64,000 nt of DNA, taken from positions 1,116,001 through 1,180,000 of the forward strand of contig NZ_JADKSG010000002.1 in NCBI RefSeq assembly GCF_015350805.1, given 5' to 3'. Of the stretch, positions 38,802-63,824 are shown piece by piece. Within the stretch, counting starts at the first letter, position 1. The number at the start of each line of letters is the position of its first letter. The translations under genes were made by a program, and so were the position numbers. Under the pieces are notes generated by a model. The model ran no database searches, was not told the origin of the DNA, and saw nothing but the letters and a program-made list of their open reading frames with translations. Source of the DNA: Herbiconiux sp. VKM Ac-1786. GTDB taxonomy: Bacteria > Actinomycetota > Actinomycetes > Actinomycetales > Microbacteriaceae.

Positions 38802-40181
38802 ATGCGCATGCTGATCATCACCGACGCCACGCGCATCCTGGTCGACGCCGCGACCGAGTTCGAGGGCGACGAGGCCCGCCGCTTCGTGGTGGGCGAGACG
38901 GTGCCGACGAGCCGCGCCGAGACGAGCGCCGAGCCGAACGCCGAGACGAGCGCGTTCGAAGCGAACCGCCCCGAGTCGAGCGCCGAGCACCTCGACGCCA
39001 CCGGCTGCGTCATCACCCCCGGCCTCGTGAACGCCCACCACCACCTCCTGCAGACCGCGTTCCGCACCCTCCCCGGCACCCGCGGGGTGCCCATGCACGT
39101 CTGGCTGCCCACCATGGCCGCCGCGTATGCCGCGGTCGGCATAGACCCCGAGAGTGCCGGCGTCGCCGCGCGCGCCGGGGTCGCCGAGGGCCTGCTCAGC
39201 GGCGTCACCACCATCGCCGACCACCACCTGAACTGGCCGGCCGGCGCGAGCGTCGACGACACCGTCGCGATCGCCCGCAGCACCGCCGACGCGGCCCGGG
39301 GCCTCGGTGCCCGGCTCGCCTTCGTGCGCGGATCGGCCCGCGACGACCCCGAGCAGGCCGCGGCCTCGGCCGACGCCATCGCGAGGTCCCTGCTGCCGGC
39401 GAACGCCGGCGGCCTCAGCCCGGACGGCCTCCTCCAGCTCGCCGTCGGCCCGGCCGGCGTGCACAGCGACTCCGAGGCCACCTTCCGCCTGCTCGGCGAG
39501 GTCGCGGCAGCCCACGGCCTCCGCCGCCGCACCCAGGCGAACGAGCAGGTCGACGTCGCCATCGCGCTCGAGAAGTACGGCCGCCGCCCGATCGCCCTGC
39601 TCGAGGAGTGGGGCTGGCTCGCCGACGACGTCACCGTCGCCCACCTCTGCGCCGTCACCGACGACGAGATCGCGCTGCTCGCCGAACGCGGCGTCACCGC
39701 GACCCACGCGCCCGGCTGCGACCTGCCGATGGGCTGGGGCATCGCGCCGGTCGCCGCCCTCCGCGACGCCGGAATCACCGTGGGCCTCGGCACGAGCGGC
39801 GGCGGCAGCAACGACGCGGGCCATCTGCTGGCGGATGCGCGGCTCGCGCTGCAGGTCGCCGCCCTCATCGGCCCTCCGCTCGACGCGCGCACGGTGCTCG
39901 GCATGGCGACCGAGGGCTCGGCGACCGGCCTCGGGCGCCCCGAGCTCGGGCACCTCCGCCCCGGCGCCGCCGCGGACCTCTGCGTCTGGGACGTCTCGGG
40001 CGTCGCCGACGCGGGCGTCGCCGACCCGGTCGCGGGCCTGCTCTGGACGAATCCCGGCCGCCGCCCGAAGCACGTGGTGGTGGCGGGCCGCGTCGTCGTG
40101 CGAGACTACGAGCTGGTAGGCCACGACGAGAGCGAGCTGGCGGCCGACGTGGCCGAGCTGCTGGCGGCGCGACTGCGGTGA
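38802..40181 (+). CDS. Amidohydrolase paralogue with altered metal site
   Basis: A 459-residue relative of the neighbouring 8-oxoguanine deaminase-type protein. The first metal motif is kept (His79 and His81 in VNAHHHLLQ), as is the His of VAHLCAV and the Glu of the HxxE block. But the HxxE histidine is replaced by Gln245 (RTQANEQ), and the beta-8 aspartate by Ser332 (GLGTSGGGSND, aligned with GLGVDGSASNE). Two canonical ligands are thus missing. The protein may bind metal differently, catalyse another reaction, or be a non-catalytic partner. The start could also be the ATG at 38808. An Arg/Ser/Glu-rich insertion lies at residues about 36-62. Confidence 0.85.
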   Translation: MRMLIITDATRILVDAATEFEGDEARRFVVGETVPTSRAETSAEPNAETSAFEANRPESSAEHLDATGCVITPGLVNAHHHLLQTAFRTLPGTRGVPMHVWLPTMAAAYAAVGIDPESAGVAARAGVAEGLLSGVTTIADHHLNWPAGASVDDTVAIARSTADAARGLGARLAFVRGSARDDPEQAAASADAIARSLLPANAGGLSPDGLLQLAVGPAGVHSDSEATFRLLGEVAAAHGLRRRTQANEQVDVAIALEKYGRRPIALLEEWGWLADDVTVAHLCAVTDDEIALLAERGVTATHAPGCDLPMGWGIAPVAALRDAGITVGLGTSGGGSNDAGHLLADARLALQVAALIGPPLDARTVLGMATEGSATGLGRPELGHLRPGAAADLCVWDVSGVADAGVADPVAGLLWTNPGRRPKHVVVAGRVVVRDYELVGHDESELAADVAELLAARLR

Positions 40182-49855: not shown

Positions 49856-49880
49856 ACCGCCCGCCCGCGCGGAGGGCGGT
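49856..49880. terminator. Hairpin between convergent PdxH-like and decarboxylase genes
   Basis: ACCGCCC at 49856-49862 and GGGCGGT at 49874-49880 form a 7-bp GC stem with an 11-base loop in the 45-base convergent gap. It can serve both directions. Confidence 0.5.
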
Positions 49881-51655
49881 CAGCGGCGCTGGGCCGCGTG
49901 CGCGATCGCCTCGGTGAGCACCGTGAGCAGGCGCGGCGAGTCCATCGCGGGCAGCACGACCTCGATCAGCACCGCCTTGTCGGTGGTGGCGTGCGCGAGC
50001 TCGAGGGCGGCGGCGAGCTCGTCCTGCGTCGACGCGCGCGCCGTGACCACGAGGTGGGCGGCCCCGAAGGCGGCGGGGATGAGCGTCCAGTCCCAGGGCG
50101 CGATGTCCTGGTAGACCGCCGCCGGGCTCTGGATCTTGCGCTCGACCGTGTACCCGTCGTTGTTCAGCAGGAACACCACCGGCGTGGAGCCGCGATGCAG
50201 CACCGTCGACAGCTCCTGGATCGTCAGCTGCGCCGCCCCGTCGCCCACGAACAGCACCGAGCGCCGCCCGGGCACGGCCACCGACGCGCCGAGCGTCGCC
50301 GGGATCGTGTAGCCGATCGACGACCACACCGGCTGCCCGAGCAGGTCGCTCTCGTCCGGCAGCACGAGGTCGAGCGCCCCGTAGAACGAGGTGCCGGCAT
50401 CGGCGATCACCGTGGTGCGCGGTCGCAGCCAGCCCTGCACGGCGGCCCAGAAGTACTCCTGGTCGAGGGCGGCCCCCACGACCGGTGCGGCGGCGTCGGC
50501 GATCGACGGATGCCCGACCGCCGTCACCGCGGGCCGCGACGTCTGCCCGAGCACGGCGTGCAGCGCGCGCAGGGAGTCCTCGAGCCGCACGCCGTAGAAC
50601 GTGGTGTCGGCGATGCGGGCGGCGGTCAGTCCGAGCTCGATCGCCTGGTCCTCGTCGAAGCGCTGGGTGAAGAAGCCGGTCAGGAAGTCGCTCATCACGG
50701 TTCCGGCGAGCACCAGCAGCGGCGCCTCGTCGACCGCGGCGCGGGCCTCGTCGACGCGGGTGAAGGCGCCCATGTAGGTGCCGAGCGAGGCCGGGTGCGA
50801 CTCGTCGAGCACCGCCTTGGACATGTTCTGCGAGGCCACGTAGACGCCGTCGTGGTCGGCGATCTCGCGCACCAGCGGCTCGAGGCTGCGGCGGTGCACC
50901 TGGGGGCCGACCAGCATCGTCACCTGGGTCGCGGTGGCGACCGCCTCGGCGAGCGCCGTGGTGAAGCGGGCGAGCTCGCCGGTGTCGCTCGACGCCGCGA
51001 CCAGCGGGTGGCGGAGGTTCGCGGCGTGCACGGGCGCCACGGCGACGTCGGACGGGATGCCGAGGTACACCGGCTTGGACTCCCGGAGTGCCGTCATCAG
51101 CGCGGCGTCGATGTCGCGCGTCGCGGTGGCGGCCCGCACGATGGTCGCCGACGCGGTGACCTCGCGGTAGGCGCGGTAGAAGTGCTCGTAGTCGCCGTCG
51201 ATCAGGGTGTGGTGGAGGTGGGCGCCCTCGGCCTTCTGGCTGGTGGAGGGCATCCCGGTGATCTGAACGACGGGCACGTCCTCGGAGAAGCTGCCGGCGA
51301 CGCCGTTGATGGCCGAGAGCTCACCGACCCCGAAGGTGGTGACGAGGGCGCCGAGGCCGCGGCGGAGGCGCGCGTAGCCGTCGGCGGCGTAGGCCGCGTT
51401 CAGCTCGTTCGTCGAACCGACCCAGTGGAAGCCGTCGACCGTGACCATCTGGTCGAGGAGGCTGAGGTTGAAGTCGCCCGGCAGGCCGAAGACGTGGTCG
51501 GCGCCGAGCTGCACGAGGCGGGCGGCGAGGTACTGGCCGACCGTGACGGTGCCGGCGGGAACGGTGCTCGCCGGGACGGTGCCGGCGGCGGGACGGACGG
51601 GGGTGCTGCCGGCAGGGGTGTCGCCGGCGGGCGGAATCTGCGTGGTGTCGCTCAT
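49880..51655 (-). CDS. Thiamine-diphosphate 2-oxoacid decarboxylase (pyruvate/indolepyruvate decarboxylase type)
   Basis: A 591-residue ThDP enzyme. The PYR domain has GLPGDFNLSLLDQM, the catalytic Glu in STNELNAAYAADGYARLRRG and the paired histidines in LHHTLIDGD, the mark of non-oxidative decarboxylases. The ThDP motif is FVGDGAAQLTIQEL followed by NNDGYTVE. It is therefore not glyoxylate carboligase, which lacks the Glu. The N-terminal 38 residues are a Thr/Pro/Val-rich extension. It starts four bases after the MetF-like gene and forms an operon with it. The acid it decarboxylates is unknown. Confidence 0.88.
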   Translation of the reverse strand: MSDTTQIPPAGDTPAGSTPVRPAAGTVPASTVPAGTVTVGQYLAARLVQLGADHVFGLPGDFNLSLLDQMVTVDGFHWVGSTNELNAAYAADGYARLRRGLGALVTTFGVGELSAINGVAGSFSEDVPVVQITGMPSTSQKAEGAHLHHTLIDGDYEHFYRAYREVTASATIVRAATATRDIDAALMTALRESKPVYLGIPSDVAVAPVHAANLRHPLVAASSDTGELARFTTALAEAVATATQVTMLVGPQVHRRSLEPLVREIADHDGVYVASQNMSKAVLDESHPASLGTYMGAFTRVDEARAAVDEAPLLVLAGTVMSDFLTGFFTQRFDEDQAIELGLTAARIADTTFYGVRLEDSLRALHAVLGQTSRPAVTAVGHPSIADAAAPVVGAALDQEYFWAAVQGWLRPRTTVIADAGTSFYGALDLVLPDESDLLGQPVWSSIGYTIPATLGASVAVPGRRSVLFVGDGAAQLTIQELSTVLHRGSTPVVFLLNNDGYTVERKIQSPAAVYQDIAPWDWTLIPAAFGAAHLVVTARASTQDELAAALELAHATTDKAVLIEVVLPAMDSPRLLTVLTEAIAHAAQRR

Positions 51656-52710: not shown

Positions 52711-52759
52711 GCCGTCTAGGCTTGTGCCACTTCGCACCGCCCGAGCCCCGAGGAGCCCC

Positions 52760-54184
52760 ATGACCGCGCCCTACGACCTCGTCGTCCGCTCCCGATCCGT
52801 GCTGGTCGACGGGGAGTGGCGGGAGGCCGCGGTCGCCGTGCGCGACGGCGTGATCGCCGCGATCGCCGAGTACGACGAGGAGCTCCAGGCGCACGAGACG
52901 GTCACGCTCCCCGAGGGCCAGGTGCTCGTGCCGGGTGTCGTCGACACCCACGTGCACGTCAACGAGCCGGGCCGCACCGAGTGGGAGGGCTTCACCACCG
53001 CCACCCGCGGCGCTGCCGCCGGGGGCGTGACGACCATCGTCGACATGCCGCTGAACAGCATCCCGCCGACCACCACGGTCGAGGGGCTCGCGGTCAAGCG
53101 CGAGGCGGCCGCCCCGCAGGCGAGCGTCGACGTGGGGTTCTGGGGCGGGGCGATCCCGTCGAGCCTCGGCGCGCTGGAGCCGCTGTGGAACGCCGGGGTG
53201 TTCGGCTTCAAGGCCTTCCTCGCCCCCTCGGGCGTCGACGAGTTCCCGCACCTCAGCACCCCCGAGCTTCGCCGCGCCCTCGAGGAGATCGCCGGCTTCG
53301 GCGGGCTGCTCATCGTGCACGCCGAAGATCCGGATGCCCTCGACGCCGCCGCGGCGACACCCACGCCCGAGGCCACCGACCCGTCCTCGACGCCCGCGGC
53401 CGACCCCGACGGCCGCGACTACGACGCCTTCGTCGCCTCGCGCCCCGACGCCGCCGAGCAGCACGCGATCGCCCACGTCATCGACGGCGTGCGCGTCACG
53501 GGCGCCCGCGCCCACATCCTGCACCTCTCCAGCGCCCGCGCCCTCGACGCCATCCGCGCCGCCAAGGCCGAGGGCCTGCCGCTCACGGTCGAGACCTGCC
53601 CGCACTACCTCGCCTTCTCGGCCGAGCAGATCCCCGACGGGGCCACGCAGTTCAAGTGCTGCCCGCCCATCCGCGACGAGGCCAACCGCGACCTGCTCTG
53701 GGAGGCCCTCCTCGACGGCACGATCGACCTGATCGCGAGCGACCACTCCCCCTCGACCGCCGAGCTGAAGTTCGCGGGCGACGGCGACTTCCAGGAGGCC
53801 TGGGGCGGCATCTCGGGCCTGCAGCTGTCCTTCCCCGCGGTCTGGACGGCCGCCCGTGAGCGCGACATCCCCCTCGAGCGCGTGCTCGGCTGGATGAGCG
53901 CGAACACCGCCGCCTTCGTGGGCCTGGCGCAGAAGGGCGCCATCGAGGCCGGCCGCGACGCCGACCTCGTCGCCTTCGCGCCCGAGGAGGAGTTCGCGGT
54001 CGACGCGGCCGCGCTCGCCCACAAGAACCCGGTCTCGGCCTACGACGGCCGCACCCTCCGGGGCGTGGTCGGCACCACCTGGCTCCGCGGCCGGATCGTG
54101 CACGGCGGGGCCGGCGAGCTCCTCGACGAGGGCACCCGCACCCCCCTCGGCGAGCTGCTCTCGCGGCCGGGTTCCACCCGCTGA
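52760..54184 (+). CDS. allB: Allantoinase
   Basis: Opens the hydantoin ring of allantoin to give allantoate. The 474-residue amidohydrolase has [19 protein letters not shown] (metal His pair), [14 protein letters not shown], the carboxylated Lys in [15 protein letters not shown], histidines in LIVHAED and ILHLSSA, and the catalytic Asp in IASDHSPST. These are allantoinase-specific in combination. An acidic Thr/Pro-rich loop is inserted near residue 205. The start is an ATG with AGGAG five bases upstream. It precedes uricase by 125 bases on the same strand. Confidence 0.94.
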
Positions 54185-54309: not shown

Positions 54310-55233
54310 ATGGCCATCGTCCTCGGAGAGCACCAGTACGGCAAAGCCGAGAACCGCATCGTGCGCGTCTACCGCGACAGCCCGCGCCACGAGATCCACG
54401 ACGTCAACGTCTCCACCGCCCTGCGCGGAGCCTTCGACCCGGCCCACCTGACGGGCGACCAGGCCGCGGTGCTCCCGACCGACACCCAGAAGCAGACCGC
54501 CTACTCCTACGCCAAGGAGAAGGGGCTCACCTCGATCGAGCCCTACGGCCTCACCCTCGCGGCGCATTTCGTCGACGACGTCGAGCCCGTCACCGGCGCC
54601 CGCATCGAGATCGAGGAGTACGAGTGGGAGCGCGCCGTCGTCGACGGCGCGGAGCACGACCACACCTTCGTGCGCAAAGGTCAGGAGGTGCGCACCGCCG
54701 CCATCACGGTCGAGGGCGTCGGAGCCGAGCAGACCAGCCACGTCATCGGCGGGTTCAAAGACCTCGTGCTGCTGAAGACCACCGGCTCGGAGTTCACCGG
54801 CTTCCTCGAGGACTCCTACACGCTGCTCCCGCCGACCAACGACCGCATCATGGCCACCTCGCTCGTGGCCAAGTGGCGCTTCGTGATGGACGAGGTGGGC
54901 GACCCCGCCGCCTTCGACTGGGAGGGCGTGTACCTCGGCATCAAGCGCACCATGATCGAGGTCTTCGCCTCGCTGCACTCGCTCGCCCTGCAGCAGACGC
55001 TGTACGAGATGGGCAAGGCGGTGCTCGAGCAGTACCCGTTCCTCGCCGAGATCCGCATGTCGGCGCCGAACAAGCACCACTTTCTCTACGACCTGTCGCC
55101 GTTCGGTCAGACGAACGAGAACGAGGTCTTCAACGCGGATGACCGTCCCTACGGCCTCATCCAGGCCTCCGTCGTGCGCGACGACGCCCCCGCGGCCGGC
55201 TCGGCCTGGACGATCGCGGGCGGCTTCGCCTGA
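54310..55233 (+). CDS. pucL: Urate oxidase (uricase, cofactor-independent)
   Basis: Oxidises urate to 5-hydroxyisourate with O2, needing no cofactor. The 307-residue protein has two T-fold halves. NVSTALRGAF and LPTDTQKQTAYSYAKEKG contain the conserved Thr and Lys of the active site, and the C-terminal part carries MSAPNKHHFLYDLSPFGQTNENEVF (in pieces) with the conserved His/Asn region. The ATG has CAGGAG seven bases upstream. It follows allB and converges on uraH, whose stop is only 12 bases away. Confidence 0.96.
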   Translation: MAIVLGEHQYGKAENRIVRVYRDSPRHEIHDVNVSTALRGAFDPAHLTGDQAAVLPTDTQKQTAYSYAKEKGLTSIEPYGLTLAAHFVDDVEPVTGARIEIEEYEWERAVVDGAEHDHTFVRKGQEVRTAAITVEGVGAEQTSHVIGGFKDLVLLKTTGSEFTGFLEDSYTLLPPTNDRIMATSLVAKWRFVMDEVGDPAAFDWEGVYLGIKRTMIEVFASLHSLALQQTLYEMGKAVLEQYPFLAEIRMSAPNKHHFLYDLSPFGQTNENEVFNADDRPYGLIQASVVRDDAPAAGSAWTIAGGFA

Positions 55234-55245
55234 ACCGCTTTTCTC

Positions 55246-55590
55246 CTAACTGCCGCGGTAGGTGGAGTAGGCGAAGGGGCTGAGCAGCAGCGGCACGTGG
55301 TAGTGCGCCGCCGCGTCGCCGAGGTCGAAGGTGATCTGCACCTCGGGATAGAAGGCCTTCACCTCCTGCTCGGCGAAGTACGTCGCCGTGTCGAAGCTCA
55401 CGCGGTACCGACCCGGCTTCAGCGCCACGGGGCCGAGGTTGTTCACGCGGCCGTCCTCATCGGTCGTCGCCGACCCGATCATCACCCAGTTGCCCACCTC
55501 GTCGTGCTCGAGGATCACGGGCACCCCCGCCGCCGGGCGTCCGATCACGGAGTCGAGCACGTGCGTGGTCACGTGGCTGCGTTCGGTCAT
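55246..55590 (-). CDS. uraH: 5-hydroxyisourate hydrolase
   Basis: Hydrolyses 5-hydroxyisourate to OHCU. The 114-residue transthyretin-like protein has THVLDSVIGRPAAGVPV near the start and ends with the diagnostic tetrapeptide YRGS. Conserved His residues are in SHVTTHVLD and AHYHVPLLLSPF. I choose the ATG at 55590, preceded by AGAGGAG. A much longer open frame in this phase crosses uraD and is not coding. It follows uraD by 32 bases. Confidence 0.96.
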   Translation of the reverse strand: MTERSHVTTHVLDSVIGRPAAGVPVILEHDEVGNWVMIGSATTDEDGRVNNLGPVALKPGRYRVSFDTATYFAEQEVKAFYPEVQITFDLGDAAAHYHVPLLLSPFAYSTYRGS

Positions 55591-55622
55591 GCTGCTCCTC
55601 TTATAGGGAAGGTCGACGGCGC

Positions 55623-56132
55623 TCAGTCGGCGGCCGGGTCGGGCGGGTACAGGCTCGCGAGCCGCAGCATCGTGATGTCGTGCAGCTCCCCGGCGACGAC
55701 GACCGCCTCGGCCGCCTCGTCGAGCAGCAGCCTCCGCCGCAGCTCCTGCAGGATCTCCGCCCGCCCCCGCCCCGCCGCCCGGATGAGGAACACCCGGTCG
55801 AACCGCGCCTCGTACTCCCGGTTGCCCGCGGCGATCTCCTCGGCGAGCGCCGCGTCCGAAGCGTCGGCCGCCGACTGCTCCGAGCGGCTGAACCGCTGCG
55901 CCTGCCCATCGCCGGCGGCCCGCTCCCCGATCCGCGGGTGATGCGCGAGCGCGGCATCCACCTCGTCCGGCGTCAGCGACGACGCCACCCGGTCGGCCAC
56001 CGCGAGCAGCTGGTCGTGCGACGAGAACGGCGCCGCGGCCGCCACCTCCGCCACGAACCGCTCCACCCCGAGGCACGACCGCAGCGCCTCCCGGAACTCC
56101 GGGCCGTCGACGGGCGCAGGCGCGTTCTCCAT
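55623..56132 (-). CDS. uraD: OHCU decarboxylase
   Basis: Decarboxylates 2-oxo-4-hydroxy-4-carboxy-5-ureidoimidazoline to S-allantoin. The 169-residue helical protein has the catalytic-histidine motif LAHHPRIGERAAG and the Glu-Gln/Ser-rich stretch SRSEQSAADASDAAL, then YEARFDRVFLIRAAGR, all typical. It heads the uraD-uraH operon. Its ATG follows TAAGCT by six bases, and this -10 box overlaps the -10 box of the divergent MocA-like gene by two bases. Confidence 0.95.
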   Translation of the reverse strand: MENAPAPVDGPEFREALRSCLGVERFVAEVAAAAPFSSHDQLLAVADRVASSLTPDEVDAALAHHPRIGERAAGDGQAQRFSRSEQSAADASDAALAEEIAAGNREYEARFDRVFLIRAAGRGRAEILQELRRRLLLDEAAEAVVVAGELHDITMLRLASLYPPDPAAD

Positions 56133-57565: not shown

Positions 57566-58411
57566 CTACGGCTGCTCGAGCTCGCCGAAGGCGTCGTAGA
57601 GCGTGTTGATCGCGGCGATGCGCGTGCGGCTGTCACGAGCGTGCGCCGCGAGCGTGTTCGACGCCAGCACGTTCGCCAGGCTCATCGCGCTGGCGTAGCT
57701 GTCGAGGGGTGAGACGCTGTCGATCGGGCACTCGATCCAGACGCTCGCGAACTCGGCGTAGCGGCGGGCCGAGGGGTCGCCGATCAGGATGACCGGCACA
57801 CCCCGCGCGGCGATGCCCGCGATCATCCGCCCGAACCCCGCGGGTCGCCGACGGAAGCCGAGCACGACGGCGGTGTCCCGCGCATCCCGCTCGGCGAACT
57901 CCTCGGCGAGGGTCTGCCCGGGCAGGGGCGCGAGCAGCACGGAGTCGCGCGCCTGGGCCAGCTGCTCGCGCAGGTGCACGGCGACCGGGTAGCTGTTGCG
58001 GAGGCCGACGATCGTCACCGTGCGCCCCCGCACGAGCAGCGAGGTCGCCTGCTCGAGCCGCTCGGGCCCGAGGGCGTCGAGGCAGCGGCGCAGGTTCTCG
58101 ACCTCACGCACGAGGTGGGCCGAGAGGTCGGCCGTCGCGCCCGGGGTGGTGCCGCCGACGGGCACTCCCGAGGAGCGGAGCGACCGCGCGTGCTCCCGCA
58201 CCTCCTGCGCGTTCTCGAAGCCGAGCCGCCGGAACAGGCGCGACACGGTCGCCTTCGACACGCCGCTGCGCTGCGCGAGCTCGGTGCCCGAGTAGACCGC
58301 GAGGTCGCTGAGGTGGTCGAGGATGAAGTCGGCCGCCCGCTGCTCCTGCGGCGACAGCTCGCCGTAGCTGCGGTCGATCCGCTGGCCGATGTTCATCGTC
58401 TGCACGCTCAT
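57566..58411 (-). CDS. RpiR family transcriptional regulator
   Basis: A 281-residue regulator. An HTH_6 domain (about 8-80: QRIDRSYGELSPQEQRAADFI, GVSKATVSRLFRRLGFENAQEV in pieces) is followed by a SIS domain (about 130-260: VTIVGLRNSYPVAVHLREQL, PVILIGDP) that binds a small effector, often a sugar phosphate or, in purine operons, a ureide. It lies last in the pucG-allC operon, 13 bases after allC, so it likely controls this pathway. I choose the ATG at 58411, giving MSVQTMNIGQRI; a longer frame has no similarity. Confidence 0.92.
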   Translation of the reverse strand: MSVQTMNIGQRIDRSYGELSPQEQRAADFILDHLSDLAVYSGTELAQRSGVSKATVSRLFRRLGFENAQEVREHARSLRSSGVPVGGTTPGATADLSAHLVREVENLRRCLDALGPERLEQATSLLVRGRTVTIVGLRNSYPVAVHLREQLAQARDSVLLAPLPGQTLAEEFAERDARDTAVVLGFRRRPAGFGRMIAGIAARGVPVILIGDPSARRYAEFASVWIECPIDSVSPLDSYASAMSLANVLASNTLAAHARDSRTRIAAINTLYDAFGELEQP

Positions 58412-58424
58412 CCGTCGCCCGCTC

Positions 58425-59759
58425 TCAGGCGTTCTCGCCCGAGGCGGCCGGCGCCGATGCAGATGCCGAGGCCGAGGCCGCCGCCACGGACGAGGCCAGC
58501 GTCGCATCGGCCACCGCCAGCACCGCCCGCTCGAACGCATCGATCGTCGCAGCGACATCCGCCTCGGTCACGTACTCGGCCGGGTTGTGGCTCACCCCGC
58601 CCTCGCACCGGACGAACAGCATCCCGATCTCGGTGATCGCCGCGATCGCCATCGCGTCGTGCCCCGCCTTCGAGAACAGCGACATGGGCCGCCGATCGCC
58701 GGTCGAGCGGATGCCCTCCCCCACCGCCGCCCGCAACCGCGCACTGCACTCCGCCGCCGGTGCCGAGTGCGTCTCGATGCTCTCCCACGACAGCCGCCGC
58801 TGCCGGCAGATGTCGGTCAGCATGTCCTGGACGACCGTCCAGATCCGGTCCCGCTCGCTGTCGTACTCGCCCCGCAGATCGAGGCTGAACTCCACCTCGC
58901 CCGGAATCACGTTGACCGCTCCCGGCGACACCTGCAGATGCCCGACGGTGGCGATGAGCTGCGCCGACCGGGCGATCCGCTCGATCGCGAGGATCGCGTC
59001 CGCCGCCCCCGCGAGCGCGTCCCGCCGCCGCTCGTAGGGCGTGCCCGAGTGCCCCGCGCGCCCCGTGATCGTGATCAGGAACCGCCGGGCCCCCGCGATC
59101 GACGACACGATCCCGAGCGCCTTGCCCTCGTCCTCGAGGTAGGGGCCCTGCTCGATGTGGGCTTCGAGGTACCCCACGAACTCCTCGGGCCGCCGCGCAG
59201 CATCCTGAACCTTCGACGGGTCGAGCCCGAAGTCGAGAAAAGCCTGGTGCAGGCTCACCCCGTGCTCGTCGAGCAGCTCCCACCAGGCGGGGTCGAAGGT
59301 GCCCGCGTACGCCCGCGAGCCGATCAGCGCCCGGCCGAAGCGGGTGCCCTCCTCGTCGGCGAAGGCCACGACCTCGAGGGCGAACGGCAGCGCGCGACCA
59401 GACGAGCGGATGCGCTGCACCACCGCGATGGCCGTCAAGACCCCGAGGATGCCGTCGTACTTCCCCGCCCGCGGCACCGTGTCGAGGTGCGACCCGAGCA
59501 GCAGCGCCGGAAGCCCGGGCTCTGCGCCTTCGAGGCGGCCGCACTGGTTGCCCGCGGCGTCCTGCCAGGTGGTCATGCCGGCCTCGCGCATCCACTCGGC
59601 GGCGATCGCGTTGACGGCGGCGTGCTCGCGTGAGAGGTTCACCCGCTGGATCAGCCCGCCCGGCAGCGACGAGTGCGTCGCCAGCAGGTCGCACCGCTTC
59701 AGCACGACGGCGGCCGTCGTGTCGGCCGGCACCTCGCGAACAGCGTCGGTGCCCGTCAC
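58425..59759 (-). CDS. allC: Allantoate amidohydrolase (M20 family)
   Basis: Hydrolyses allantoate to ureidoglycine, ammonia and CO2. The 444-residue M20 metallopeptidase-fold enzyme shows LLLGSHLDTVPRAGKYDGILG, VAFADEEGTRFGRALIGSRA, AHIEQGPYLEDEG, GRAGHSGTPYERRRDAL and SKAGHDAMAIA, which supply the binuclear metal site and the allantoate-type Arg/His residues. N-carbamoyl amino acid hydrolases are close relatives; the neighbouring pucG and allB favour allantoate. The GTG start overlaps the pucG stop (GTGA). The C-terminus ends in a Ser/Ala-rich tail. Confidence 0.9.
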   Translation of the reverse strand: MTGTDAVREVPADTTAAVVLKRCDLLATHSSLPGGLIQRVNLSREHAAVNAIAAEWMREAGMTTWQDAAGNQCGRLEGAEPGLPALLLGSHLDTVPRAGKYDGILGVLTAIAVVQRIRSSGRALPFALEVVAFADEEGTRFGRALIGSRAYAGTFDPAWWELLDEHGVSLHQAFLDFGLDPSKVQDAARRPEEFVGYLEAHIEQGPYLEDEGKALGIVSSIAGARRFLITITGRAGHSGTPYERRRDALAGAADAILAIERIARSAQLIATVGHLQVSPGAVNVIPGEVEFSLDLRGEYDSERDRIWTVVQDMLTDICRQRRLSWESIETHSAPAAECSARLRAAVGEGIRSTGDRRPMSLFSKAGHDAMAIAAITEIGMLFVRCEGGVSHNPAEYVTEADVAATIDAFERAVLAVADATLASSVAAASASASASAPAASGENA

Positions 59760-60994
59760 GCCCCGGCCCCCTCGTACACGCCATAGGCCGCTTCCACCGC
59801 AGCCCCCGGCGCCCCCGCCGCCCCGTTGCGCCGCAGCACCTGCTCGAGCGCGGCCAGCGTCGTGAGCACCGCGTCCTTCCGCGCGTTGTACCCCATCGTC
59901 CCGATCCGCCACACCTTGCCGTGCAGCGGCCCGAACGAGGTGCCGATCTCGATCCCGAAGTCCTCGAGCATCTCCCCGCGCACCGCGTCACCGGTGACCC
60001 CGTCGGGGATCTGCACCGCCACCACGTTGTTCATCTTCGCCGCGGGGTCGCCGAACACGGTCAGCCCGAGACCCTCGACGCCCGCGAGCATGGCGGCCCC
60101 GTGCATCCGGTGCCTCTCGATGGTGGCGTCGAGCCCCTCCTCGACGATGATGCGCGCGCACTCGCGGGCGCCGTAGAGCATCGTGGTGGCCTCGGTGTGG
60201 TGGTTGAGGCGCTTCTCGCCCCAGTAGTCGAAGATCATGGCGAGGTCGAAATAGTTCGAGCGGATGCGCGACTCACGGATCTCGTCGGAGGACCCCGCGA
60301 TCCCCGCCTCGATGCTCTTCCGCGACTCGATGCGCTCGACGGCCTTCGCCGAGAACGTCGCGGGTGCCGACCCGGACGGTCCCCCGAGGCACTTCTGCAG
60401 CCCCGCCGTCACGGCGTCGAGCCCGAGCGCATCCGCGTCGAACGCGTTGCCGGCGAGCGACGCGGTGACGTCGGTATAGAACAGCACGCCGTGCTTCGCG
60501 CAGAGCTCGCCGAGGCCCTCGAGCGGCTGGGCGAGCGTGGTGCTGGTGTCGCCGTGCACGACGGCGAGGAGGGCGGGTTTCACGCGCACGATGGCCTCCT
60601 CGATCTCGCGCTCGGTGAAGACGGTGCCCCACTCGCGCTCGATCACGTGCACCTCGGCGCCGGCGCGCTCGGCGATCTCGCGCAGCAGGTGCCCGAATCG
60701 GCCGAACACGGGCACGAGCACGCGGTCGCCGGGGGCGACGAGCGACAGGATTGCCGCCTCGATGCCCGCGCGCGAGGTGCCGTCGATCAGCAGCGTCTGC
60801 TCGTTCGCCGTGCGGAAGACCTGCCGGTACAGGCCCATGGTCTCGGTCATGTACGCCGTCATCGCGGGGTCGTACTGGCCGACGAGCTGCGCCGACATCG
60901 CACGCAGCACGCGCGGATCGGCGTTGATCGGGCCGGGGCCCATCAACAGGCGCGGCGGCGGGTTGATCTGAAGAAGGTCGGGCGGGGTGCTCAT
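59756..60994 (-). CDS. pucG: (S)-ureidoglycine-glyoxylate aminotransferase
   Basis: Class V PLP aminotransferase of 412 residues. The PLP lysine is in TAGLQKCLGGPSGSAP, preceded by FYTDVTASLAGNAF with the conserved Asp. LLMGPGPINADPRVL at the start is typical of the AGXT/PucG group. It transfers the amino group of ureidoglycine to glyoxylate, giving glycine and oxalurate. Alanine-glyoxylate aminotransferase is the closest alternative, but the coupled allC gene strongly favours PucG. GAGGAG lies four bases before the ATG at 60994. Confidence 0.86.
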   Translation of the reverse strand: MSTPPDLLQINPPPRLLMGPGPINADPRVLRAMSAQLVGQYDPAMTAYMTETMGLYRQVFRTANEQTLLIDGTSRAGIEAAILSLVAPGDRVLVPVFGRFGHLLREIAERAGAEVHVIEREWGTVFTEREIEEAIVRVKPALLAVVHGDTSTTLAQPLEGLGELCAKHGVLFYTDVTASLAGNAFDADALGLDAVTAGLQKCLGGPSGSAPATFSAKAVERIESRKSIEAGIAGSSDEIRESRIRSNYFDLAMIFDYWGEKRLNHHTEATTMLYGARECARIIVEEGLDATIERHRMHGAAMLAGVEGLGLTVFGDPAAKMNNVVAVQIPDGVTGDAVRGEMLEDFGIEIGTSFGPLHGKVWRIGTMGYNARKDAVLTTLAALEQVLRRNGAAGAPGAAVEAAYGVYEGAGA

Positions 60995-61013
60995 CGGTCT
61001 CCTCGAAAAGTCT

Positions 61014-61060
61014 GTTTCGTCGCCGCCCAGTCTACGAAACGCGTGTTTCACCCGTGTTTC
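61014..61060. promoter_or_regulatory. GAAAC/GTTTC motif cluster upstream of pucG-allC-rpiR
   Basis: GTTTC at 61014-61018, the palindrome GAAACGCGTGTTTC at 61036-61049, and a direct repeat CGTGTTTC at 61042-61049 and 61053-61060 (one helical turn apart) lie before the pucG start. The same core CGAAAC recurs upstream of the amidase operon near 63954-63979. RpiR is the obvious candidate to bind it. Confidence 0.6.
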
Positions 61061-61068
61061 GCGTCCGC

Positions 61069-61152
61069 GCGTGTACGCTCCGGACTGATTTTCGAGGGGT
61101 CGGCGACCACTATGGTCGCGGTGGCCCGGATATCATTCCGGAGCGTACACGC
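61069..61152. terminator. Nested inverted repeats after the amidase gene
   Basis: A perfect 16-bp inverted repeat (GCGTGTACGCTCCGGA at 61069-61084; complement at 61137-61152) encloses a smaller hairpin GCGACC-ACTAT-GGTCGC (61103-61119). The right arm lies inside the last codons of the amidase gene. It probably ends the acetamidase-amidase transcript before the pucG promoter. Confidence 0.65.
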
Positions 61153-62728
61153 CGGCCTCAGCGAGCACGGCGGCCAGGTCAATCAGTGCGAGGTCGGAGC
61201 CGCGCGGGCCGACGAGACAGAGCCCGAGCGGCGCGCTGCCGCCGGGTGCCGGTACGCGGAGCAGCGGCGCCGAGACCGCGGGGTAGCCGCCGGTGCCGGC
61301 GACGGCGGTCATCCGCAGCGTCGCGGCCCGCACCGCCGCGATCGTCTCGGCCGACGCGTCCAGCGGCGGCGCCGCCGACGACGCAGACGGCAGCAGCAGC
61401 ACCCGCCCGCCGAGCGCCGCGTCGAACCGTTCCCGCGCCTGGCGCAGCACCTCCCGCGCCTCGATCTCCTGCCCGGGGGTGATCGCGGCGGCGACCTCGA
61501 AGCGCTCGGCGACGTCGTCCCCCACGGCTCCCGGATGCGCCGCCACCCACGCCCCGTCGGCCCGCCACGCCTCGGCGCCCTGCACCGTGCGGAACGCCGC
61601 GAACACCGCGTCCAGCCCGCCCAGCACGACGCTCTCCACCGATCCCCCGAGCTCGGCGACGAAGGCGTCGAACGCGGCGACCACCTCGGGATCGCAGCCC
61701 TCGAGCAGCTCGGCCGCCACGACGAACGCCGGACGCAGTGCGACGACCGTGCCGGAGGCCGGCGCGAGCGACGCGGCGGCCGCCGCCCGCAGCGTCGCCG
61801 CGTCGCGCGTCAACCACCCCACGGTGTCGAACGAGGGCGCGAGCGGCAACAGCCCCCGCGTGCTCACGGCGCCGTGCGTCGTCCGCAGCCCCCACAGCCC
61901 CTGATACGACGCCGGCACCCGGATCGACCCGGCCGTGTCCGTCGCCAGCCCGATCGTCGCCTGCCCGAGCGACACCGCGGTGGCGGGCCCGCTCGACGAG
62001 CCGCCCGGGATCGCCCCCGGCACGGCCGGGTTCGGCGCCGTCCCGTAGTGCACGTTCCGCCCCGCGATGCTGTACGCGAACTCGTCCGTCTGCGCGATCC
62101 CCTGCACGGCCGCCCCCGCGCCACGAAGCGCCGCCACGGCGTCGGCGTCGACGGATGCCCGCCCCGCCTCCGCGAGGAACACCGGGTTCCCCGCCCCCAC
62201 CGCGTACCCCGCCACGTCGAACAGATCCTTCACGGCCACCGTCATCCCCGCCAGCGGCCCTGGACCGGAGGCAGGGACGAGCGGCGCCCCCGCCACCCGC
62301 CAGACCGAGCGGTTCAGCGCGGGCGGGGCGCCGGTGACGTGGGCGGCTCCGATCGTCCAGGTGCCGGCGGGCGAGCGCTGCCAGAGCTGCGTCTGCAGCC
62401 CCGTTCCGCCGGCGTCGAAGGCGCTGACGGACACGAGCAGTGCCGCATCCGGAGCCACCACCCGCACGTGCAGCTCGACGATGCTCCGCGGCGCCACCCC
62501 ACCCCGCAGCCCCCGGAAGGCCGCGATGCGCCCGTGCCCCACGAGCAGCCCGTTCGCGTCGCCCCGCAGCGTGTCGGCCCCCGGGGCGAACGACCCGTCG
62601 AGCGCGGCGACGTCGTTCGACATCAGCGCCGCCTCGTACCCCCGGAACGCCTCCAGCAGCGCCGCGAGCTCCCCCTCCGGCAGCGACCCCACCAACGATG
62701 TGACACCGGAAGGCACCGCGTCAGCCAC
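61133..62728 (-). CDS. AtzH-like/amidase fusion (candidate oxalurate-branch amidase)
   Basis: A 531-residue natural fusion. Residues about 12-135 form an NTF2-like AtzH/HpxZ (DUF3225) domain (LLEAFRGYEAALMSNDVAAL, RGLRGG, TQLWQRSPAGTWTIGAAHVT in part). Residues about 140-531 are an amidase-signature enzyme with Lys167 (AVKDLFDV), the cis-Ser pair in PGGSSSGPA (244-246) and nucleophile Ser268 (TDTAGSIRVPAS). In Klebsiella, separate HpxZ and HpxY genes belong to oxalurate breakdown; fusion here supports a joint function. It sits between the acetamidase gene and pucG, whose product makes oxalurate. The reaction is inferred. The GTG start overlaps the upstream gene by eight bases. Confidence 0.84.
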   Translation of the reverse strand: MADAVPSGVTSLVGSLPEGELAALLEAFRGYEAALMSNDVAALDGSFAPGADTLRGDANGLLVGHGRIAAFRGLRGGVAPRSIVELHVRVVAPDAALLVSVSAFDAGGTGLQTQLWQRSPAGTWTIGAAHVTGAPPALNRSVWRVAGAPLVPASGPGPLAGMTVAVKDLFDVAGYAVGAGNPVFLAEAGRASVDADAVAALRGAGAAVQGIAQTDEFAYSIAGRNVHYGTAPNPAVPGAIPGGSSSGPATAVSLGQATIGLATDTAGSIRVPASYQGLWGLRTTHGAVSTRGLLPLAPSFDTVGWLTRDAATLRAAAAASLAPASGTVVALRPAFVVAAELLEGCDPEVVAAFDAFVAELGGSVESVVLGGLDAVFAAFRTVQGAEAWRADGAWVAAHPGAVGDDVAERFEVAAAITPGQEIEAREVLRQARERFDAALGGRVLLLPSASSAAPPLDASAETIAAVRAATLRMTAVAGTGGYPAVSAPLLRVPAPGGSAPLGLCLVGPRGSDLALIDLAAVLAEAGVYAPE

Positions 62729-63824
62729 GCCGCACCCCCGCGAAGTCGGCGACGCGGATGCGCGCGTGCACGCCCTTGACGATGTCGACCACCTGCGAGA
62801 TGTCGAAGTCGGTGGCGGCGCTGAGGTAGGCGTAGGCGAGCGCCCGGTCCATGCCGTACCGCGCCTCGAGGAGGCCGAGCGCGGCGCGCACGCAGTTCTG
62901 CACCGCGACGTCGAGATCCTCGTCGAGGCCCGTCGGCACCAGAAACTCGGAGGTCTCGGCCAGCGGCCCGGCGATCGTCCCGAAGGACTCCACGGCCTCG
63001 GCCTGCGGCACCACCTCGAACCGCACGGTCACGCGCAGCGACGCCTCCATCGCGGTCAGCGCCACCTCCCCGTCGCCCTGCGCGAAGTGCGGGTCGCCGA
63101 CGTACGCGAGCGCGCCCGGCACCTGCACGGGCAGGTACAGCGACGACCCCACGGTGAGCAGGTTGATGTCGATGTTGCCGCCGTGCGGCCCCGGCGGCAC
63201 CGAGTGCGGCCGTTGGTCACCGGCCACCGCGACCCCCATGATGCCGAGGAACGGACGCAGCGGGAACCGCACCGACCGCTCCCCGCCCGGCACGAGCGGC
63301 AGCGTGCCCCACTCCGACCCGTCGAGCCCGTGCTCGACCTCGGCGAACACGCTCACCGACCCCTGCGAGACGGGCATCTCCCCCACCAGCGCGCCCTTGC
63401 CGTGCCGGTTCGAGATCACGCCGTACGGCACCCGCGGTGTCGTCTCGAGCACGGTCATCTTCAGCAGGTCGCCCGGCTGCGCCCCGCGCACGGCGATCGG
63501 GCCGGTCACGACGTGAGGCCCGTCGGTTCCCGAGCGTGGGTAGCCGGATGCGGCCAGCGCCACCGCGTCGTCGAGCACCAGAGACCGGTCGACGCCGTTC
63601 GCGGCGAAGAAGGCCGCCGGGTCGCGACCCTGGTCCTCGAGGATGCCCTCGTGGCTCAGCGTGTCGATCGTCACGTCGGTGCCCGGGTCGATCGTCAGCA
63701 CCGGCCGGTCGGTGGCGCAGGGCAGCCGCCCCCAGAGCACGTGCGAGAGGCTCGCGGCCAGGTAATCGGTGGCGCGGATCTCGCCCGCGCCGGGCTGCAG
63801 GGCCGCCGTCATCGACATGCGCAT
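62721..63824 (-). CDS. Acetamidase/formamidase family protein
   Basis: A 367-residue FmdA/AmdA-family amidase. Family landmarks include VTGPIAVRGAQPGDLLKMTVLE, RFPLRPFLGIMGVAVAGD, PPGPHGGNIDINLLTVGSSLYLPV and YVGDPHFAQGDGEV (His and Asp residues for zinc; written in pieces). Known members hydrolyse formamide or acetamide. In this pathway oxamate or formamide would be a sensible substrate, which is inference. It heads a two-gene operon with the AtzH-amidase fusion. The ATG at 63824 could be replaced by in-frame ATGs at 63818 or 63812. Confidence 0.88.
   Translation of the reverse strand: MRMSMTAALQPGAGEIRATDYLAASLSHVLWGRLPCATDRPVLTIDPGTDVTIDTLSHEGILEDQGRDPAAFFAANGVDRSLVLDDAVALAASGYPRSGTDGPHVVTGPIAVRGAQPGDLLKMTVLETTPRVPYGVISNRHGKGALVGEMPVSQGSVSVFAEVEHGLDGSEWGTLPLVPGGERSVRFPLRPFLGIMGVAVAGDQRPHSVPPGPHGGNIDINLLTVGSSLYLPVQVPGALAYVGDPHFAQGDGEVALTAMEASLRVTVRFEVVPQAEAVESFGTIAGPLAETSEFLVPTGLDEDLDVAVQNCVRAALGLLEARYGMDRALAYAYLSAATDFDISQVVDIVKGVHARIRVADFAGVRRG

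Follow-up and report, generated by a model that had tools for sequence, protein, structure and literature searches.

An AtzH-amidase fusion and an FmdA-family amidase as the probable enzymes of the oxalurate-to-oxalate steps of purine breakdown in a gene cluster of Herbiconiux sp. VKM Ac-1786

The DNA window studied here is a 64-kb stretch of the genome of Herbiconiux sp. VKM Ac-1786 (G000, 3.9 Mb), the nearest relatives of which are Herbiconiux and other Microbacteriaceae; coordinates refer to this window unless another record is named. Its minus strand carries, in this order, genes encoding an amidase of the FmdA/AmdA family (fmdA), a fusion of an AtzH-like domain with an amidase, a PucG-type aminotransferase (pucG), allantoate amidohydrolase (allC) and a regulator of RpiR type, followed by uraD and a hydroxyisourate hydrolase gene, while the uricase and allantoinase genes are on the plus strand (Table 1). 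The first four of these genes had been placed here by the initial annotation of this DNA, and all of them were found, with open frames and family matches. Results of our analysis suggest that the cluster probably carries purine nitrogen from urate to oxalate, and that the fusion and the FmdA-family protein would handle oxalurate and oxamate, respectively.

The overlapping frames of fmdA and the fusion gene form the tightest unit of the cluster, the stop of the former and the start of the latter sharing 8 bases (GTGGCTGA). The pucG stop and the allC start share GTGA. The coupling of allC with pucG was already part of the initial annotation, which overlooked the second overlap, that of fmdA with the fusion gene; its placement of the latter two genes directly upstream is right as to order, but a gap of 138 bases (60995-61132) parts the fusion gene from pucG. 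In the frame list, pucG starts with GTG at 61051, which is probably too early, since the ATG at 60994 is preceded by a GAGGAG box. The regulator gene lies 13 bases downstream of allC.

The genes themselves are certain, and from their sequences we infer the following reactions. Uricase, hydroxyisourate hydrolase, UraD, allantoinase and allantoate amidohydrolase would be followed by PucG, which is predicted to convert ureidoglycine to oxalurate, with an alpha-keto acid, for instance glyoxylate, as the acceptor of the amino group. Next, the terminal ammonia of oxalurate would be split off by the amidase domain of the fusion to give N-carboxyoxamate, the AtzH domain would convert the latter to oxamate and CO2, and the FmdA-family enzyme would hydrolyze oxamate to oxalate and ammonia, replacing the unrelated HpxW of Klebsiella. 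The steps proposed for the fusion are modelled on AtzE and AtzH: oxalurate is similar to 1-carboxybiuret, on which AtzE acts, so that N-carboxyoxamate is the product expected from the amidase and oxamate that expected from the AtzH domain, and AtzH is thought to decarboxylate 1,3-dicarboxyurea.

By sequence, an aminotransferase of Hpx type (HpxJ/PucG) is present. The best matches of PucG in PDB are the ureidoglycine-glyoxylate aminotransferase of Klebsiella (3nnk, 579 bits) and PucG of B. subtilis (3isl, 453 bits), as compared with 289 bits for 1vjo and at most 229 bits for the remaining enzymes of alanine-glyoxylate type. On these scores we rule out an alanine-glyoxylate aminotransferase, a finding that would have counted against the oxalurate/oxamate branch proposed in the initial annotation. 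Glyoxylate is the amino acceptor in the name of PucG-type enzymes; keto acids other than glyoxylate are also used by them.

The AtzH-like part of the fusion supplies a protein of HpxZ/AtzH type as a fused domain, and the remainder matches the Amidase family (PF01425) with 160.8 bits. The best NCBIfam model for the amidase domain is PRK08310 (NF006169), at 354 bits and below its cut-off of 391. Membership in the AtzE/HpxY subfamily is ruled out by a score of 142 bits to TIGR02715 (cut-off 425.75), although the AlphaFold model of the fusion (mean confidence, pLDDT, 90.7) has AtzE (6c62) as its best fold match; another relative of known structure, both by sequence and by fold, is malonamidase E2. 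Between the five genes from fmdA to the regulator gene, which overlap or are separated by no more than 138 bases, there is no room for a small subunit of HpxX/AtzG type, the search for it having covered these genes and not the remainder of the genome.

The active-site residues of AtzH are those named in PMC6219798 (in excerpt). According to an alignment numbered by hand, the AtzH domain of the window is identical to AtzH at Tyr22, Arg46, Arg63, Arg66, Arg73, Gln106 and Gln108 and has Ala in place of Arg96; Tyr22 and Arg46, taken as the mark of an AtzH decarboxylase, are thus both there. Except for Gln106, which is kept in 19 of 31, these identical residues are invariant in all 31 aligned fusions (that of the window included), and so are Lys167, Ser244 and Ser268 of the amidase domain, which we take to be the catalytic triad of the amidase-signature family. 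The parallel with HpxY and HpxZ drawn in the initial annotation therefore applies to the HpxZ-type domain but not to the amidase, which is outside the HpxY/AtzE subfamily; its broader interpretation agrees with the co-occurrence data given below but did not tell the amidase and AtzH steps apart.

The window's FmdA belongs to the FmdA/AmdA family by its profile (PF03069, 113.9 bits, cut-off 27), and this fmdA, in two pieces of the gene, accounts for all matches of PF03069 in its genome. Its score of 74.4 bits to the formamidase equivalog NF045496, as against a curated cut-off of 500, rules out the identity of an ordinary formamidase in the equivalog sense. The AlphaFold model (pLDDT 92.2) has an acetamidase fold and matches the putative acetamidases 3b9t, 2ii1 and 2f4l. 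In a quick tree of 126 proteins, from which L086, L119, L103, L104, L120 and L124 were left out (partial, duplicate or over-long frames), a single branch of 96 rows with a support (SH-aLRT) of 98 holds all 82 PucG-linked FmdA proteins, 12 of the 17 that are linked to the amidase but have no PucG in the vicinity, and 2 of the 27 others. Residues Arg33, Asp39, Arg205, Phe247 and Leu295 are kept in 98-100% of the 82 PucG-linked proteins, as compared with 6-25% of 25 outsiders (a set without L181 and L167). Arg205 directly precedes the FmdA motif PPGPHGGN, and it is our guess that it might bind the carboxylate of oxamate.

The scan of named genomes with the fusion gave 158 relatives, the best 80 of which were kept; with the window and 13 further relatives, they make up 94 mapped loci, or 93 after L104, which is in the same record as L103, was dropped. 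Seven loci were left out as duplicates of others. Because the fusion served as the query for these 93 loci, its own occurrence in them carries no information, in contrast to that of the other genes. In 80 of them the gene immediately upstream of that for the fusion-type amidase, on the same strand, is fmdA, in one the arrangement is different, and in 12 no fmdA is seen; the adjacency is more than chance would give. PucG is encoded in 81 loci and occurs together with FmdA in 73, the genera including Herbiconiux, Agreia, Rathayibacter, Cryobacterium, Frigoribacterium, Demequina, Bifidobacterium, Streptomyces and Arthrobacter.

The class was sampled evenly by a draw of 246 genomes, and these were searched with thresholds of E<=1e-60 for the amidase, E<=1e-25 for FmdA and E<=1e-90 for PucG, which gave matches in 40, 60 and 19 genomes, respectively. 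The fusion-type amidase is present in all 19 genomes with PucG, that of one of them (G160) lacking the AtzH part. A close FmdA (E<=1e-119) occurs in 18 of these 19 genomes vs. 4 of the 227 others (Fisher p 1.5e-22, uncorrected for descent); for any FmdA at E<=1e-25, the numbers are 18 of 19 vs. 42 of 227. None of the 246 genomes has FmdA at E<=1e-119 without the amidase. In G206, FmdA and the fusion are encoded at separate places, and so are, in G044, pucG and the FmdA-fusion pair. No ureidoglycolate lyase (PF04115) was found in the 19 PucG genomes, and AllE exceeds its cut-off only in G160 (G104 has a weak match below it), which leaves PucG as the sole user of ureidoglycine, of those searched, in 18 genomes.

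Six Bifidobacterium loci (L115, L116, L118, L120, L121 and L124) combine pucG-allC-allB and the fusion with genes for a permease of purine/allantoin type and an Asp/Glu/hydantoin racemase, and four of the six have FmdA within the cluster. In the Cryobacterium breve record NZ_CP075584.1 (L103 and L104), the same cluster is found at both ends, perhaps owing to an unclosed overlap of a circular assembly.

HpxW is an oxamate amidohydrolase (PMC5270733, in excerpt, citing Hicks and Ealick 2016), and YwrD of Bacillus subtilis is described in the former paper as HpxW-like. The genome of the window has no match to its family, PF01019. Such matches are present at 25 loci in 14 of the 19 PucG genomes, but they score 160 bits (G160) or at most 124 against HpxW; of eight proteobacterial HpxW loci, the interrupted one of Klebsiella scores 195 bits and the other seven score 278-1080 bits. 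With at most six candidates scored per genome, HpxW-like matches at E<=1e-40 are absent from all 18 genomes with both PucG and FmdA. The joint occurrence of fusion and pucG in the absence of hpxW, proposed as a check in the initial annotation, was thus observed, with FmdA present in all of these genomes. At the same threshold, 38 of the 246 genomes give HpxW-like matches, mostly weak, and the strongest (G285, 39% identity) is outside both the PucG and the FmdA lists. The only PucG genome without an FmdA match, G160, has, besides its amidase without AtzH, AllE and AllG; its protein of gamma-glutamyltransferase (GGT) type is nearer to 2nlz than to 5hft and was not called HpxW.

Among 21 records of a plasmid collection with PucG, 12 were inspected; in the stretches fetched, HpxW is present in 8, FmdA in none, and neither in 4, namely, in Pantoea, Zymomonas, Enterococcus gilvus (where the AllFGH set is present) and Halomontanus. 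Four of the 12, three from Pseudoalteromonas and one from Photobacterium, have a run of amidase, HpxW, pucG and allC, in which the best PDB match of HpxW is 5hft. Their amidase is of the window's type, with 35-39% identity (matched in pieces in one Pseudoalteromonas record), and no AtzH was found in these runs. HpxW is encoded there between the amidase and pucG, whereas fmdA in the window is on the other side of the amidase gene, so that the argument rests on the partners in one run, gene order aside. By this comparison, the same amidase and aminotransferase accompanied by HpxW there and by FmdA here make up the strongest argument for the proposed replacement. The occurrence of this type of amidase together with HpxW elsewhere makes it improbable that the amidase itself acts on oxamate, and FmdA would be left for this step. 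In the Pseudoalteromonas loci (L231, L240 and L245), a gene for an exporter of TauE/SafE type, a candidate exporter of the end product, is located between hpxW and pucG; the Photobacterium run has no TauE.

Several observations weigh against our interpretation. The threshold of E<=1e-119 was set after the list of FmdA matches was known, and the statistics leave descent uncorrected. AllG is present in 7 of the 19 PucG genomes, six of them among the 18 with FmdA, which does not suit a strict swap of one route for the other. In twelve of the 93 loci no FmdA is seen, two of them being cut by contig ends, and nine FmdA-less loci were followed into their genomes; in this search, which covered ten genomes and, as a control, that of L116, which has FmdA in its own cluster, FmdA was found elsewhere in the genome in G022, G050, B. 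ruminantium (L118) and a Propionibacteriaceae bin (L100), and no match at E<=1e-20 was found in B. moukalabense (L115), L082, L084, L086, L102 and L132. Four of the last five are titled as metagenome-assembled genomes. Conversely, pairs of FmdA and the fusion without pucG in the fetched flanks occur in Streptomyces, Trebonia, Arthrobacter and Rhodococcus, so the substrate of the pair need not be purine-derived. The AtzH part was recognized in 85 of the 93 loci; the eight without it at E<=1e-6 comprise two cut by contig ends, one with a weak match (L050), one Salinibacterium bin and four Cryobacterium loci (L119, L125, L127 and L130) in which the amidase has no recognizable AtzH part. Finally, oxalyl-CoA decarboxylase exceeds its cut-off in none of the 19 PucG genomes, which rules it out as the sink of the end product, oxalate. 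The pathway role proposed in the initial annotation is borne out as to co-occurrence, but AllG in 6 of the 18 FmdA genomes and the pairs without pucG had gone unseen.

Spontaneous decarboxylation has been described for related intermediates (PMC6219798, in excerpt), and the loci without AtzH are compatible with it. With the fusion and no FmdA match at E<=1e-20, B. moukalabense should stop at oxamate; in the available part of PMC6518056, its allantoin genes are mapped to a route towards glycine in which these steps are unassigned. The AllFGH route is ruled out for the window's own genome, which has no AllG match (PF06545). As to the surroundings of loci without FmdA, the fusion or amidase gene of L102, L132, L082, L084 and L086 is preceded by three genes that resemble, by eye, those of an ABC transporter of molybdate type, and in two Salinibacterium bins (L102:12683-13075 and L132:6354-6770) a small gene follows pucG at the usual site of allC, the one in L102 matching NifU-like proteins weakly, with a score under the Pfam cut-off.

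The pairs without pucG suggest a more general function. The neighbours of FmdA and the amidase or fusion there include creatininase-like (L169, L172 and L177), luciferase-like monooxygenase (L169, L172 and L233), amidohydrolase (L128 and L172) and NMT1-type transporter genes (L128, L134 and L172), as well as regulators of GntR type. These contexts may mark another catabolic pathway, and they suggest a module for dismantling acylureas via the acylcarbamate and the primary amide to the acid, recruited into several pathways, for which oxalurate would be one substrate of several. L172, with its creatininase-like neighbour, is inside the FmdA branch, but 82 of the 96 rows of this branch are linked to pucG, and L169, L175, L177, L192 and L193, all without pucG, are outside it and have Pro instead of Arg at position 205. 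We regard this possibility as rather unlikely on these grounds, although it complements the assignment to oxalurate and oxamate more than it opposes it. A combination of both is conceivable and is put forward tentatively: a second family of oxamate amidohydrolases, unrelated to the first, would be contained in FmdA and would form, with the fusion, a portable module that releases ammonia, CO2 and ammonia in turn, acting on oxalurate in the purine breakdown of actinobacteria, bifidobacteria included, and on other acylureas in the actinobacterial clusters with creatininase-like and luciferase-like monooxygenase genes.

Alternatively, oxalate and urea could be formed from oxalurate by the amidase in a single step, and the substrate of FmdA could be another amide such as formamide or acetamide, on which its characterized relatives act (PMC5052560, in excerpt), the neighbourhood reflecting shared regulation only. 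This would leave the AtzH domain, the active-site residues of which are kept, without a task, and the low score to the formamidase model as well as the separate branch of the linked FmdA proteins also make it improbable. The reversal of roles, with FmdA taking the ureido ammonia of oxalurate and the amidase domain hydrolyzing oxamate, as malonamidase E2 does with malonamate, is suggested by the relationship of the amidase domain to that enzyme. It is quite improbable, since the AtzH domain is fused to the amidase, which suits an N-carboxy product of the latter, since an amidase of this type is retained in Pseudoalteromonas and Photobacterium together with HpxW, the known oxamate enzyme, and since B. 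moukalabense keeps the fusion with no match to FmdA at E<=1e-20. That PucG is an alanine-glyoxylate aminotransferase, as the public annotation of its relatives ("alanine-glyoxylate aminotransferase family protein") has it, that no oxalurate is formed and that nitrogen-scavenging amidases have come together in the cluster by chance is highly improbable in view of the PDB scores given above, the pucG/allC overlap and the occurrence of the amidase in every PucG genome of the draw.

With oxalurate assigned to the fusion and oxamate to FmdA, the enzyme set appears to be a variant of the known Hpx route. The Hpx system of Klebsiella (HpxJ, HpxXYZ, HpxW and HpxU) has in common with it the aminotransferase, allantoate amidohydrolase, a domain of HpxZ/AtzH type, an amidase and a regulator of RpiR type, as HpxU is also annotated. 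In the window, however, an FmdA-family partner takes the place of HpxW, and the amidase is nearest to PRK08310 and fused to its AtzH domain, with no HpxX/AtzG gene among the five. AtzG-AtzE-AtzH of cyanuric acid catabolism likewise comprises an amidase of the AtzE fold and a decarboxylase of the NTF2 fold with Tyr22 and Arg46 (PMC6219798, in excerpt), whereas here a single polypeptide, another amidase subfamily, no adjoining AtzG and a purine context are found. The Pseudoalteromonas and Photobacterium runs share the amidase type, PucG and AllC with the window, and differ in having HpxW and no AtzH. The oxamic transcarbamylase AllFGH of E. coli also leads from oxalurate to oxamate, but by other proteins and with carbamoyl phosphate as a product (PMC11326118, in excerpt). 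The formamidases and acetamidases FmdA/AmdA share the Pfam family, fold and core motif with the window's FmdA, which is in a separate branch with Arg33, Asp39 and Arg205 and far under the formamidase model. Among the matches listed in a literature search of titles and abstract openings, which left subscription journals mostly outside, none assigned to the FmdA family an action on oxamate or a part in the degradation of allantoin.

If our assignment is true, it fills the last steps of purine catabolism for a large group of actinobacteria, the genes of which are annotated only as amidase and acetamidase/formamidase. In a family for which mainly formamide and acetamide are known as substrates, one branch would acquire a natural function. 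Beside the same amidase and aminotransferase, moreover, an enzyme unrelated to HpxW would have taken its place. The assignment also yields a testable mechanism of three steps for just two proteins, the fusion and the product of the adjacent gene.

Table 1. Features of the 64-kb window that are related to the proposed pathway
Feature	Position	Strand	Match or remark
FmdA/AmdA-family amidase, proposed oxamate amidohydrolase, 367 aa	62721..63824	-	PF03069
AtzH-amidase fusion, proposed oxalurate amidohydrolase and N-carboxyoxamate decarboxylase, 531 aa	61133..62728	-	PF11533 and PF01425
AtzH/HpxZ-like domain of the fusion, residues 21-132	62333..62668	-	PF11533, 57.8 bits
Amidase-signature domain of the fusion, residues 152-524, closest to PRK08310	61157..62275	-	NF006169, 354 bits
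pucG, ureidoglycine-glyoxylate aminotransferase	59756..60994	-	PDB 3nnk, 579 bits; start by ribosome-binding site
allC, allantoate amidohydrolase	58425..59759	-	NCBIfam NF006775, 514 bits (cut-off 479)
RpiR-type regulator	57566..58411	-	PF01418
uraD, OHCU decarboxylase	55623..56132	-	TIGR03180, 139.4 bits, at its cut-off
Hydroxyisourate hydrolase, stretch used as reference	55246..55620	-	identity read from the translation
Urate oxidase	54310..55233	+	TIGR03383, 334 bits
allB, allantoinase	52724..54184	+	TIGR03178, 556 bits

Matches to the RpiR-type regulator and to hydroxyisourate hydrolase are present in 61 and 64 of the 94 mapped loci, respectively. The gap between the fusion gene and pucG contains at 61103-61119 a perfect inverted repeat, GCGACCA-TAG-TGGTCGC, with no T run, which may be an operator. 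Just past the end of the window, divergent from fmdA, there is a gene for a DUF1275 membrane protein (G000:C2:1180039-1180779; L003:12039-12779). DUF1275 matches occur in 59 of 112 FmdA loci (L103 and L104 in this count being one record), and 50 of the 59 are divergent from fmdA and less than 1 kb away; the protein is possibly a transporter of the pathway, e.g., for oxalate. A thiamine pyrophosphate (TPP) enzyme encoded near allB, at 49880-51655, was considered as a glyoxylate carboligase and rejected, as its best match is indolepyruvate decarboxylase, below the cut-off of that model. The amidohydrolase encoded at 38802-40181 is nearest to 8-oxoguanine deaminase (256 bits, cut-off 532) and may represent a further purine gene.

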